NCBI GenBank assembly: GCA_020161215.1
Contig: JAIUOM010000022.1
Coordinates: 1-43,852 of the forward strand
DNA length: 43,852 nt
Source of the DNA: Pseudomonadota bacterium
GTDB taxonomy: Bacteria > Pseudomonadota > Gammaproteobacteria > Burkholderiales > Burkholderiaceae_C
Direction: 5' to 3'
The first letter of the stretch is position 1. Each line of letters begins with the position of its first letter. Shown here piece by piece: positions 1,119-5,848 of this stretch. The position numbers and the translations under genes were made by a program. The notes below the pieces were generated by a model. The model did no database searches. It was not told where the DNA came from and saw nothing but the letters and a program-made list of their open reading frames with translations.

Positions 1119-1480
1119 GCTGGGCAGCTCGTGTAGGGATTCCTCCACTACAGCATGTACCAGATTGATTGGGGGCCGGTGGGGACAGCACCAATGGCCC
1201 CATCCGGCGGTCGCTGTCTTGCCCCGGGGAGATGGGGAAAATCGAACGCTGAGGCTTTTCAGTCAAGCTCAAGCAGCTATCAAAATAGTAATTTTCCATG
1301 CTGACGCGAACCCGTTGCCGGATGGGCGGCGAGCCGCCGCGAGGGACGGTGGCGAAAGTGCCCTGCCCCCTGGCCGCCTGCGGCACCCATCGCGTACAGT
1401 ACCCGGTTCAGGATGTCGCGGGCAGGGGCCCGCACAACCACCAGTTTTTCCGCGGCCCGGCTCTTGAGCGCTGCCCACGT
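1119..1480. other. Intergenic region upstream of pssA
   Basis: About 360 bases without a recognisable gene. At 1276-1290 there is a GCTATCAAAATAGTA, a degenerate relative of the 17-base AT-rich module found elsewhere in the window. No clear terminator for the upstream gene and no clear pssA promoter could be identified. In related Burkholderiales pssA usually follows ilv genes; nothing of those is visible here. Confidence 0.4.
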
Positions 1481-2365
1481 ATGTTGAACAAAGACACCTC
1501 TGACACCGACAAGGCGCCGGCCTTCGGGGACATGCGCTCGCAGATGCGCCGCAAGGGCATCTACGTGCTGCCCAATCTGTTCACCCTGGCGGCCTTGTTT
1601 GGGGGCTTCTACGCCATCGTCATGGCCATGAACGGGCGCTTTGATCTGGCCACCACCGGCATCTTCGCGGCCATGGTGCTGGACAGTCTGGACGGGCGCG
1701 TGGCGCGCATGACCGGCACACAAAGCGCCTTTGGCGAGCAGATGGATTCGCTGTCCGACATGGTCAGTTTCGGTGCCGCGCCGGCCCTGGTGGCCTATGA
1801 GTGGGCCTTGCGTCCGCTCGGGCGCTGGGGCTGGATCGCCGCTTTCGTCTACTGCGCCTGCGCGGCGCTGCGTCTGGCGCGCTTCAACGTCAACACGGCG
1901 GTGGTGGACAAGCGTTACTTTCAGGGCCTGCCGTCCCCAGCGGCGGCGGCGCTGGTGGCCGGCTTCATCTGGCTGACCAGCGCCATGCTGGTCGAACAGC
2001 GCGATGTGCCCTTGTTCCGGGCTCTGGTTTCGCTGTGCGGCGATGGCGTGGTGGGCCGGGGTGATTTGGGTTGGGTCATGTTCGGCATCACCTTGTTTTC
2101 CGGGTTGACCATGGTCACCAACACGCCGTACTACAGCTTCAAGGATTTTGGCGGCCGGCGCAGCGTGCCTTTTGCCGTGTTGGTGCTGGTGGCCCTGCTG
2201 TTCGCCGTGATCAGCATCGAGCCGGCCACCATGCTGTTCTTGCTGTTCTTCGGCTACGCGTTGTCGGGCTACGTGATCTATGCCTGGCGGCGCGCCAAGG
2301 GCCAGCACGCCAGCATCGTCAGCACATCGACCGACGAGCCCGACGAGCGCGGCCTGCACGACTGA
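1481..2365 (+). CDS. pssA: CDP-diacylglycerol--serine O-phosphatidyltransferase
   Basis: Makes phosphatidylserine from CDP-diacylglycerol and L-serine at the inner membrane, the first step to phosphatidylethanolamine. The 294-residue protein shows the complete CDP-alcohol phosphotransferase signature at residues 68-93: D-x2-DG-x2-AR-x8-G-x3-D-x3-D (DSLDGRVAR ... GEQMDSLSD), supplying the metal-binding aspartates. Hydrophobic segments flank it (about 30-50, 58-68, 105-125 and several further to about 270), as expected for this polytopic family. The ATG at 1481 (MLNKDTSD) was chosen because the open frame upstream is arginine- and proline-rich and has no family resemblance. The gene directly precedes the leucine attenuator and leuA genes, an association known in Burkholderiales, although leu transcription appears to be controlled separately. 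Confidence 0.93.
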   Translation: MLNKDTSDTDKAPAFGDMRSQMRRKGIYVLPNLFTLAALFGGFYAIVMAMNGRFDLATTGIFAAMVLDSLDGRVARMTGTQSAFGEQMDSLSDMVSFGAAPALVAYEWALRPLGRWGWIAAFVYCACAALRLARFNVNTAVVDKRYFQGLPSPAAAALVAGFIWLTSAMLVEQRDVPLFRALVSLCGDGVVGRGDLGWVMFGITLFSGLTMVTNTPYYSFKDFGGRRSVPFAVLVLVALLFAVISIEPATMLFLLFFGYALSGYVIYAWRRAKGQHASIVSTSTDEPDERGLHD

Positions 2366-2389
2366 CGGGCGCCGTCTCGCAAGCTGTGC

Positions 2390-2395
2390 TACATT
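2390..2395 (+). promoter_or_regulatory. -10-like hexamer TACATT ahead of the leucine leader peptide
   Basis: TACATT ends 7 bases before the leader ATG at 2403, so the attenuator RNA would begin at or near its own start codon. A CTGACG at 2362-2367 resembles a -35 box but is 22 bases away, which is too far. The promoter is therefore a candidate only. Confidence 0.4.
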
Positions 2396-2402
2396 GCAAG
2401 CC

Positions 2403-2456
2403 ATGCAAAAGCTGTCGCTAGCCCTACTACCCATGTCCCACGGGCAGGCAGAGTAG
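2403..2456 (+). CDS. Leucine-rich leader peptide of the leuA attenuator
   Basis: A 17-codon frame encodes [17 protein letters not shown] and ends with TAG at 2454. Four codons are Leu: one CTG at 2412 and CTA at 2418, 2424 and 2427. CTA is unusual in this GC-rich DNA, where neighbouring genes use CTG or CTC for nearly all Leu; a rare codon makes a sensitive sensor of charged leucyl-tRNA. The frame lies between pssA and the first leuA, and is followed by an intrinsic terminator with a competing upstream pairing. By analogy with classical leucine attenuation, ribosome stalling at the CTA codons when leucine is scarce would allow read-through into leuA. The peptide itself is not expected to have a function. 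Confidence 0.75.
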
Positions 2457-2486
2457 CGCGCGTCAGTTTCTACCCCATCGGCCCGT
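2440..2486 (+). promoter_or_regulatory. Predicted anti-terminator pairing of the leuA attenuator
   Basis: ACGGGC at 2440-2445, inside the last codons of the leader peptide, is the exact complement of GCCCGT at 2481-2486, which is the inner part of the terminator 5' arm. The two pairings exclude each other. A ribosome that finishes the leader and sits at the stop codon would cover 2440-2445 and free the terminator; one stalled at the CTA codons (2418-2429) would leave it free to pair. GCCC at 2421-2424 can also pair with GGGC at 2442-2445 as a possible protector hairpin. Confidence 0.6.
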
Positions 2487-2514
2487 ATGCACCAGCAACG
2501 GGCCGTTTTCTTTT
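2479..2514 (+). terminator. Intrinsic terminator of the leuA attenuator
   Basis: An 8-base-pair perfect stem, CGGCCCGT (2479-2486) with ACGGGCCG (2498-2505), has an 11-base loop and is followed by TTTTCTTTT. It lies 22 bases past the leader stop codon and 51 bases before the leuA ATG, so it acts inside the transcript leader rather than at an operon end. Confidence 0.8.
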
Positions 2515-2565
2515 GCATGCCGCTTGCTGGTCGTTCTCCCACCCACCCCTTGGAAGACCACCATC

Positions 2566-4269
2566 ATGTTGAAGAACCCCGCCAGCAAGTACCGCGCGTT
2601 TCCCCCCGTCGGGCTGCAAGGCCGCACTTGGCCCGACGCCGTCATCACCCAGGCCCCGATCTGGCTGTCGACCGACTTGCGCGACGGCAACCAGGCGCTG
2701 GTCGAGCCCATGGACATCGAGCGCAAGCTGCGCATGTTCGAGACCCTGGTGGCCATTGGCTTCAAGGAGATCGAGGTCGGCTTTCCCTCCGCCTCGCAGG
2801 TCGAATTTGACTTCGTGCGCCGCCTGATCGAGGAGGGCCGCATTCCCGACGACGTCACCGTCCAGGTGCTGACCCAGGCCCGCGATCCCTTGATCGAGCG
2901 CACATTTGAATCGCTGCAGGGCGCGCCACGCGCCATCGTGCACTTGTACAACGCCGTCGCGCCGGTGATGCGCAAGGTGGTGCTGGGCCTGGACGAAGAC
3001 GGCATTGTCGAGCTGGCGGTGCGGCAGGCGCGCCTGTTCAACGAGCTGGCGGCGCGCCAGCCGGGCACGCAGTGGACTTTTCAGTACTCGCCCGAGATGT
3101 TCTCCGGCACCGAGCTGGCGTTTTCCAAGCGGGTGGTGGATGCCGTCACCGAGGTCTGGGCACCGACACCGGCGCGCAAGTGCATCGTCAACCTGCCCTC
3201 GACGGTGGAGCATTCCACGCCCAACATCTTCGCCGACATGATCGAGTGGATGCACCGGTATCTGGACCGGCGCAACGCCATCGTGCTGTCGGTGCACCCG
3301 CACAACGACCGCGGCACCGGCACCGCGGCGGCCGAGTTGGCGCTGATGGCCGGGGCCGACCGCATCGAAGGTTGTCTTTTCGGCAACGGCGAGCGTACCG
3401 GCAACCTGGATCTGGTCAACGTCGCGCTCAACCTGTACACGCAGGGCGTGTCGCCGGGCCTGGATTTTTCCCATATCGATGAGATTCGCGCCACCGTCGA
3501 GTACTGCAACCAGTTGCCGGTGCACCCGCGCCATCCGTACGTGGGCGATCTGGTCTATACCTCGTTTTCGGGCTCGCACCAGGACGCCATCCGCAAGGCC
3601 TTTGCCGCGCGCAGTGAGGGCGACGTGTGGGACATCCCCTACCTGCCCATCGACCCGAAGGACGTGGGGCGCAGCTACGAGGCGGTGATCCGCGTCAACA
3701 GCCAATCCGGCAAGGGCGGCATCACCTACCTGCTGGAGAACGAATACGGGCTGGAGTTGCCGCGCCGTCTGCAGATCGAGTTCAGCCAGGTGGTGCAACG
3801 CGTGATGGACGTGGAGGGCAAGGAGCTCAGCGCCGCCGACCTGTGGGCCATCTTCCGCCGCGAGTACGGCCTGGACGAGGCCCCCGCGCTGGTGCACCGC
3901 GTGCTGCAAGAGGAGGGTGAGGGCCAGGACGCCACCGTGCTGCTGCGTGGCGATCTGCGCTGGGACGGTCAGGTGCGCGCCATCGAGGGGCGTGGCAACG
4001 GCCCGGTGGACGCCTTCGTGCAGGCGCTGACGACAGCCAGCGGCCGCGAAATCCGCGTCATCGACTACCACCAGCACGCCATCGGCACCGGCGCCGACGC
4101 GCGCGCGGTGGCCTACCTCGAGCTGCGCGTGGACGGCGCGCGGACGCTGTTTGGCGTGGGTATCGACGCGGACATCATCGCCGCCTCGTTCAAGGCCATC
4201 GTGTCCGGCGTGGTGCGTGGTGGAGTGCGTGTCGCCGACACGGCACAATCGGCCCTCGAAGCCGCCTGA
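2566..4269 (+). CDS. leuA: 2-isopropylmalate synthase, long (fungal/actinobacterial-like) form
   Basis: Condenses acetyl-CoA with 2-oxoisovalerate to 2-isopropylmalate, the committed step of leucine synthesis. The protein has 567 residues, the length of the LeuA2/fungal-like class, compared with about 515 for the classical bacterial form next door. The catalytic TIM-barrel begins with DLRDGNQ (37-43; D40 metal ligand, R39 substrate), and SVHPHNDRG at 242-250 supplies H244 and H246. A C-terminal LeuA dimer/regulatory domain follows, with the [10 protein letters not shown] motif, the usual site of leucine feedback inhibition. The start at 2566 ([10 protein letters not shown]) fits the family N-terminus. 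It is the first structural gene after the attenuator and is followed after 37 bases by a second leuA with its own AGGAG. Confidence 0.93.
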
Positions 4270-4306: not shown

Positions 4307-5848
4307 ATGGCGGACCAGCTCATCATTTTCGACACCACCTTGCGCGACGGCGAGCAGTCGCCCGGCGCCAGCATGACGCGCGACGAGAAACTGCGTATCG
4401 CCCGCCAACTCGAACGCCTGAAGGTGGACGTGATCGAGGCCGGCTTCGCGGCCAGCTCGAACGGCGACTTTGAGTGCGTGCAGGCGATCGCCAACGTGAT
4501 CAAGGATTCCACCGTCTGCTCGCTGGCGCGTGCCAACGACCGCGACATCGGCCGCGCGGCCGATGCCCTGAAGGGCGCGGCGCGCGGGCGCATCCACACC
4601 TTCATCGCCACCAGCCCGCTGCACATGGAGAAAAAGCTGCGCATGACGCCCGACGAGGTGTTCGAGCAGGCCCGGTTGGCGGTGCGCTTTGCGCGCAATC
4701 AGCGAGACGACGTGGAGTTCAGCGCCGAGGACGGCTACCGCAGCGAGCTGGGCTTCCTGGCCCGCGTGTGCGAGGCCGTCATCAAGGAGGGCGCCACCAC
4801 CATCAACATTCCCGACACGGTGGGCTACGCCATTCCCGAGCTGTACGGTGAGTTCCTGAGAAAACTGCGCGAGATGGTGCCCAACAGCGACCAGGCCGTG
4901 TGGTCGGTGCACTGCCACAACGACCTGGGCATGGCCGTGGCCAACAGTCTGGCCGGGGTGAAACTGGGCGGCGCGCGGCAGATCGAGTGCACCATCAACG
5001 GCCTGGGCGAACGCGCCGGCAATTGCTCGCTTGAGGAGATCGTGATGGCCGTGAAGACGCGGCGCGACTACTTCGGGCTCGATGTCGGCATCGACACCGC
5101 GCAGATCGTGCCGGCCAGCCGCATGGTCAGCCAGACCACCGGTTTCGTGGTGCAGCCCAACAAGGCGGTGGTGGGCGCCAACGCCTTCGCGCACGCCAGC
5201 GGCATCCACCAGGACGGCGTGCTCAAGGCGCGCGACACCTACGAGATCATGCGCGCCGAGGACGTGGGCTGGAGCGCCAACAAGATCGTGCTGGGCAAGC
5301 TCTCGGGCCGCAACGCCTTCAAACAGCGCCTGCAGGAGCTGGGCGTGATGCTGGAATCCGAGGGCGAGATCATGGCCGCCTTCGCCAAGTTCAAGGAGCT
5401 GGCCGATCGCAAGAGCGAGATTTTTGACGAGGACATCCTGGCCCTGGTCGGCGACGAGAGCGTCACGGCCGAGAAAGAGCAGTACGGCCTGATCTCCCTG
5501 TCGCAACGCAGCGAAACCGGCGAGCGGCCGCACGCCGAGGTGGTGTTCACCATCGACGGCGTGGAATACAAGGGCAGCGCGGACGGCAACGGCCCGGTCG
5601 ATGCGTCGCTGAACGCCATCGAGTCGCACGTCAAGAGCGGTGCCGAGCTGCTGCTGTACTCCGTCAATGCCATCACCAGCGGTTCCACCGAGAGCCAGGG
5701 TGAGGTCACCGTGCGTTTGCAGAACTCGGGCCGCGTCGTCAACGGCGTGGGCGCCGACCCCGACATCGTGGTCGCGTCGGCCAAGGCTTATCTCAGTGCT
5801 CTCAACAAGTTACACAGCAAAGCTGACCGAGTTGCGGCGCAAGGCTAG
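4307..5848 (+). CDS. leuA: 2-isopropylmalate synthase, classical bacterial form
   Basis: Catalyses the same reaction as the preceding gene but belongs to the shorter bacterial class: 513 residues starting [20 protein letters not shown]. The catalytic site shows R13 and D14 of LRDGEQ, and H202 and H204 in VHCHND. The central part has the ASGIHQDG motif and the C-terminus carries the LeuA regulatory domain with [10 protein letters not shown] good ribosome site, CAGGAG, lies 8 bases before the ATG. Sequence identity with the upstream copy is clearly low, so the two are not a recent duplication. A strong terminator lies 34 bases after the stop. Both genes presumably sit under the upstream attenuator, unless the 37-base gap hides a promoter, which I do not see. 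Confidence 0.95.

Follow-up and report, generated by a model that had tools for sequence, protein, structure and literature searches.

The question raised by this locus is how the two consecutive 2-isopropylmalate synthase genes leuA1 and leuA2 are controlled, and what part the gap between pssA and leuA1 has in it. In the window (the whole 43,852-nucleotide stretch of DNA analyzed here) this gap contains a leader open reading frame, a pair of complementary hexamers and a terminator, and the fold of the RNA from 2403-2510 has an energy of -44.9 kcal/mol (z -4.3), which none of 200 shuffles reached. A sequence-only reading had placed a leucine attenuator in front of the leuA pair, and this proposal is now supported by the enrichment of leucine and CTA codons in the leaders, terminator covariation, stalled-ribosome folds and the presence of leuA at every locus read. 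Judging from these comparisons and folding models, the element is very probably a leucine-responsive, ribosome-mediated transcription attenuator controlling leuA1-leuA2. Its function is ordinary, and what is new is a lineage-specific form outside the Rfam Leu_leader model; the one truly unexpected conserved feature is a helix that joins the terminator loop to a fifth segment past the terminator (4:5). Both this helix and the extended -10 motif were absent from the sequence-only reading. The coordinates of all features are collected in Table 1.

Table 1. Features of the pssA-leuA region in the window; pairs of numbers joined by a colon denote the paired segments
Feature	Positions	Strand	Details
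pssA ORF	1298..2365	+	TIGR00473 over cut-off; upstream of the leader; true start may be internal
Extended -10 motif	2385..2395	+	TGTGCTACATT; hexamer ends 7 nt before the leader ATG; TGTGnTAnAnT conserved, 138 elements
Leader, 17 sense codons, probably leaderless	2403..2456	+	ATG 2403-2405, TAG 2454-2456
Protector (1:2), core helix	2424..2456	+	CTACT 2424-2428 with AGTAG 2452-2456; MFE fold
Antiterminator (2:3)	2440..2486	+	ACGGGC 2440-2445, exact complement of GCCCGT 2481-2486; stalled-ribosome folds
Intrinsic terminator (3:4)	2479..2514	+	CGGCCCGT 2479-2486 with ACGGGCCG 2498-2505; T-rich run 2506-2514
Post-terminator helix (4:5)	2491..2531	+	ACCAGCAA 2491-2498 (loop and start of 3' arm) with TTGCTGGT 2524-2531
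leuA1, 2-isopropylmalate synthase, long type	2566..4269	+	TIGR00970 and NF002991 over cut-off
leuA2, 2-isopropylmalate synthase, bacterial type	4307..5848	+	TIGR00973 and NF002087 over cut-off

Positions 2340-2580 were searched with blastn against 399 genomes of the family, a group of environmental bacteria, which gave many strong matches at the pssA-leuA gap, and a covariance model (R1) was built from the 30 best of these. The RNAalifold consensus of 30 sequences showed patchy structure outside the terminator, and therefore the protector was entered into R1 manually, following the window fold. With a cut-off of E ≤ 0.01, R1 matched 321 of the 399 genomes (286 of the 350 of good quality) and 120 of 141 genera. 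The loci that were read are high-scoring matches, made up of 100 of the R1 matches listed and the loci supplied with the blastn and R1 results, with the weaker matches and the 78 genomes without a match lying outside the set; the 160 loci yielded 138 distinct elements after the removal of identical 130-nt elements. leuA was found downstream in all 160 and pssA upstream in 145 of them within the stretch examined, and the downstream gene was of the leuA1 type for 71 and of the leuA2 type for 67 of the distinct elements. A search of the wider order with a second model (R2) found matches in 25 of 399 genomes, i.e., 13 from the same family, five from one other family and seven with weak matches. 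All five from the other family (L174-L178) lie upstream of leuA1, and the stretch examined around them has no match to pssA, so the element may have been retained, or passed on by transfer, independently of that gene. The seven weak matches (L180-L186, E 0.002-0.006, other families) were dropped, with no leuA or pssA nearby. A pattern made from the conserved part recovered at least 117 stretches, which among the matches listed came mostly from Comamonadaceae (e.g., Polaromonas, Ramlibacter, Hydrogenophaga, Delftia, Rhodoferax, and Limnohabitans). The assembly of the window also carries a second pssA-leuA1-leuA2 locus (C245:18518-18662) with its own leader, MSSIARLLALALLPRSRVR, and a loop/post-terminator complement recognized by eye (CACGCAGC/GCTGCGTG); it may be a paralogue or sit on a foreign contig (estimated contamination of the assembly 2.95%).

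The 17-codon frame with four leucine codons, three of them CTA, the 8-bp terminator with its T-run and the exact complementarity of ACGGGC with GCCCGT had all been described from the letters alone, and each was confirmed to the base. In the window leader the leucine codons are CTG at 2412 and CTA at 2418, 2424, and 2427. Conservation of leucine codons in relatives, a test set beforehand, was found throughout: all 138 leaders have a length of 15-19 codons and contain 3-7 leucine codons (mean 4.4 of 17.3 codons; 17, 65, 37, 17, and 2 leaders with three, four, five, six, and seven, respectively), with at least one CTA in 138 and at least two in 135. CTA accounts for 326 of the 612 leucine codons of these leaders (53%) vs. 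11 of 999 (1.1%) in the 26 ORFs of the window. The suggestion that rare CTA codons act as the sensor agrees with this bias and with a precedent in the Salmonella leu leader, where replacing three CUA codons by CUG lowered the sensitivity, a design in which CUA serves as sensor (PMC1183508). The suggestion has nevertheless to be qualified, since the leader stop codon (TAG in 121 of 138) lies in an (A/G)GTAG with which CTACT pairs as well, and the choice of CTA may thus be a matter of RNA structure in part, rather than of sensing alone. Following the leader, TAGCGCGCG (2454-2462) is near-invariant in the family, a conservation that exceeds the need of a short protector helix, and it is possibly part of a longer protector.

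The promoter bears on how this leader is translated. The motif TGTGnTAnAnT is strongly conserved over the 138 elements, among which a conserved -35 was looked for and none was found, and the distance from the hexamer to the leader ATG is 6-10 nt in 137 of 138. Transcription typically starts 6-8 nt past a -10 hexamer, which would put the 5' end at or beside the leader ATG. From the position of the promoter, the window leader is therefore probably translated as a leaderless mRNA, i.e., without a ribosome-binding site. Such an arrangement had been called unusual for attenuation, yet a precedent exists: the trpL transcript of Sinorhizobium meliloti starts at its ATG (PMC7298713). In another genome, a weak second match (L188, G128:C1:3503991-3504134, minus strand) has the same -10/ATG layout; its leader (MQTQRAYFFYFWFSPPAA) carries Phe, Tyr, and Trp codons, and the downstream ORF by eye resembles a DAHP synthase. 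As this aromatic leader shares the layout, leaderless attenuators may be general in the family.

The pairings were examined in a covariance-model alignment of 100 of the 138 elements (A2). The window terminator was absent from the output of a simple terminator scan, since its 11-nt loop exceeds the 3-8 nt allowed there. In the alignment the terminator stem is paired in 99.8% of cells and has 42 double-change cells, a number that none of 500 shuffles reached. Covariation of both stems in relatives had been named as a check, and only the terminator gave it: the antiterminator ACGGGC/GCCCGT is kept in 96.7% of cells, with covariation not above that of shuffles (188 of 500 as high; a single double change, reached by 72 of 500), and as its pairing is near-invariant, covariation neither supports nor refutes it. 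The protector core is paired in 96.6% of cells with three double-change cells, a weak covariation, and a register slid by +3 pairs nearly as well (96.1% of 205 countable cells). An exact 10-bp complement between the leader start (CATGCAAAAG, 2402-2411) and the sequence 3' of the T-run (CTTTTGCATG, 2510-2519) is used in the computed fold of the read-through RNA; it was left out of the element, being not common to leaders beyond the close group.

The effect of the ribosome was modelled by folding all 138 elements with a mask set 13 nt beyond the A site (an assumed distance). With the A site at leucine codon 1, 2, or 3, segment 3 paired with the leader in 124, 132, and 133 of 138, in line with the earlier proposal that stalling lets the antiterminator form. 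The numbers decreased at codons 4 and 5 (78 of 121 and 17 of 56), as the ribosome begins to cover segment 2, and stood at 4 of 19 for codon 6 and 0 of 2 for codon 7. A ribosome at the stop codon left this pairing in only 2 of 138. The positions of the leucine codons are, in these models, what attenuation needs, because stalling at the early ones frees the antiterminator and a ribosome at the stop codon does not. What counts against the model is that segment 3 still pairs with the leader in 40 of the 138 RNAs when no ribosome is present.

The short frame might, on the other hand, be no sensor at all, with a constitutive terminator and a promoter between pssA and leuA being what is conserved; the terminator and the -10 motif are indeed the most conserved parts. 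We regard this as highly improbable given that leucine codons occur in every leader, the CTA share is about half vs. 1.1%, the frame is constant in length, the leader-tail complement is kept and the element precedes leuA at every locus read.

For the leucine attenuator, the proposed course of events would be as follows. Transcription would start at the leader ATG or no more than a few bases away, and the 17-codon leader would be read as a leaderless mRNA. When there is enough Leu-tRNA, the ribosome would reach the stop codon and mask segment 2, so that 3:4 forms and transcription ends within the T-rich run. When Leu-tRNA is scarce, the ribosome would stall at CTG/CTA and 2:3 would form first, upon which RNA polymerase would continue into leuA1-leuA2. 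In the read-through RNA, segment 4 would then be captured by the fifth segment (2524-2531), which might lock the antiterminated fold. Transcripts coming from pssA lack a free leaderless start, hence their leader would remain untranslated and the terminator should stop them.

The 4:5 pairing itself is supported by sequence comparison, with compensatory changes. Segment 5 lies beyond the T-run, and in the window 25 nt separate the two pairing segments. Using a fixed register, a score of 17 was reached in 120 of the 138 elements, in which the helix is considered present; it is absent from 18 (3 of 71 leuA1-type and 15 of 67 leuA2-type). The paired strings are of 33 different kinds, including ACCAGCAAC/GTTGCTGGT, CCAGCGAC/GTCGCTGG, CCCGCAAC/GTTGCGGG, and CAAGCGCAG/TTGCGCTTG. 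Compared with shuffled tails, the best helix exceeded the 95% level in 121 and the 99% level in 104 of 138, and own tails scored 21.5 on average vs. 16.1 for swapped ones (sd 0.34, highest 16.7 of 50). An initial covariation count (57 of the 71 leuA1-type elements) had omitted some elements with a different register or no pairing and was for that reason repeated on all 71 (69 distinct rows), aligned regardless of pairing and with the leuA2-type left out. In this set 94.6% of cells were paired vs. 91.0% after shuffling and 12-57% when slid, with 27 double-change cells (a number reached by 0 of 500 shuffles) and four pairs with a double change (5 of 500), while the measure "further pair types" was no better than in shuffles (395 of 500). 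On leuA trees, parsimony placed 12 (leuA1) and 16 (leuA2) switches from one Watson-Crick pair to another, a count that covers 70 of 71 and 66 of 67 sequences, includes only elements with the helix and comes with no branch support. At the base shared by 4:5 and 3:4, 26 of 38 loop-side changes from A to G come with a T-to-C change in segment 5, with the terminator partner remaining T in 36 of 38. The helix was also found in 101 of the 116 named loci scored among the matches listed, although these loci overlap with the first set and were picked by a pattern in which part of the loop is fixed.

The 4:5 helix uses the loop plus two or three bases of the upper terminator stem, and it cannot alter the first termination decision, since RNA polymerase has to pass the T-run before segment 5 exists. 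Energy gaps were computed for 117 of the 120 elements with the helix. 4:5 formed in all 117 antiterminated folds and lessened the mean gap between this fold and the terminator fold (8.6 kcal/mol before, 3.2 kcal/mol with it), which favours its role as a latch; it reversed the gap in 20 of 117, and, against a latch, the terminator fold was still the lower one with segment 5 in 97 of 117. In these folding models, 4:5 would most likely be a latch that locks the read-through RNA in its antiterminated form. More broadly, and with rather less than even confidence, we propose a five-segment attenuator with a further regulatory step, either such a latch on the antiterminated leuA mRNA or, in trans, control by the terminated leader RNA.

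In the trans version the terminated leader would be a small RNA whose loop pairs with segment 5 of the leuA mRNA or with other leucine mRNAs, as for rnTrpL of S. meliloti. The covariation of loop and segment 5 fits this as well as pairing in cis, and there are known cases of attenuator RNAs that act in trans (PMC7298713); within one molecule, however, the two segments are so close together that they would meet each other first, and we consider the trans reading rather improbable. In the leuC upstream regions of 28 genomes, own loops scored only slightly better than those of others (15.3 vs. 14.4, sd 0.45, 200 permutations), in a set where several extracts contain coding sequence (the L216 stretch appears coding) and some starts are approximate (e.g., L198, L206, L211, and L215), and leuC was put aside as a trans target with a weak, unconvincing match.

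Segment 5 lies at a median of 28.5 nt (leuA1 type) or 29.5 nt (leuA2 type) from the leuA start, a distance that would suit a role in setting up leuA translation, by a loop-tail pseudoknot or an exposed ribosome-binding site, in place of a transcript lock. We judge this unlikely: in read-through RNAs of 119 of the 120 elements, openness of the leuA start was 0.49 with segment 5 free vs. 0.51 with it blocked and was higher with pairing in 49 of 119, in a model that cannot score pseudoknots, and a role through an open start region was discarded on this unchanged openness. Nor is 4:5 at all likely to be a second terminator in general, as at least four T in 6 nt come after 31 of the 120 helices and not after the other 89, that of the window included; it would also form best in the antiterminated state, where termination would be senseless. 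The latch thus stays our preferred role, and with it comes the question of whether attenuators act after the termination decision has been made. A covarying helix past the terminator lies outside the classical model and offers a target that is precise and easy to mutate.

Leucine attenuation is textbook knowledge for enteric bacteria, and the closest comparison is with leuL of E. coli K-12. At the gathering score, Rfam RF00512 (Leu_leader) does not match the window, positions 2300-2600 gave no Leu_leader match with E up to 5, and 0 of 19 loci were matched by RF00512 vs. 1 of 1 for the E. coli leuL control; a below-threshold match of ctRNA_p42d on the terminator (E 0.39) was taken as chance. 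In the limited open-licence literature searched, no paper was recognizable from its listing as dealing with this leader or with an attenuator that has a loop/post-terminator helix, and a 2013 survey using Rfam models placed such attenuators mainly in gamma-proteobacteria (PMC3766115). The enteric leader shares with the present one a short, leucine-rich peptide with consecutive CTA codons (four in E. coli), a 3:4 terminator, a position directly before leuA and the same control logic. It differs in its length (28 codons vs. 15-19 here) and has neither the extended -10 promoter with the ATG 6-10 nt from the hexamer nor the loop/post-terminator helix (score 12, equalled in 37% of 1000 shuffles). 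The trpL attenuator of S. meliloti (rnTrpL/peTrpL) is likewise ribosome-mediated with a transcript beginning at the leader ATG, a start that is probable for the present element, whereas the amino acid, gene, and lineage are others and trans action has been demonstrated there (PMC7298713). Taken with these systems, a whole family beyond the coverage of Rfam appears to run leuA by a leaderless attenuator in which rare CTA codons would serve as they do in Salmonella.
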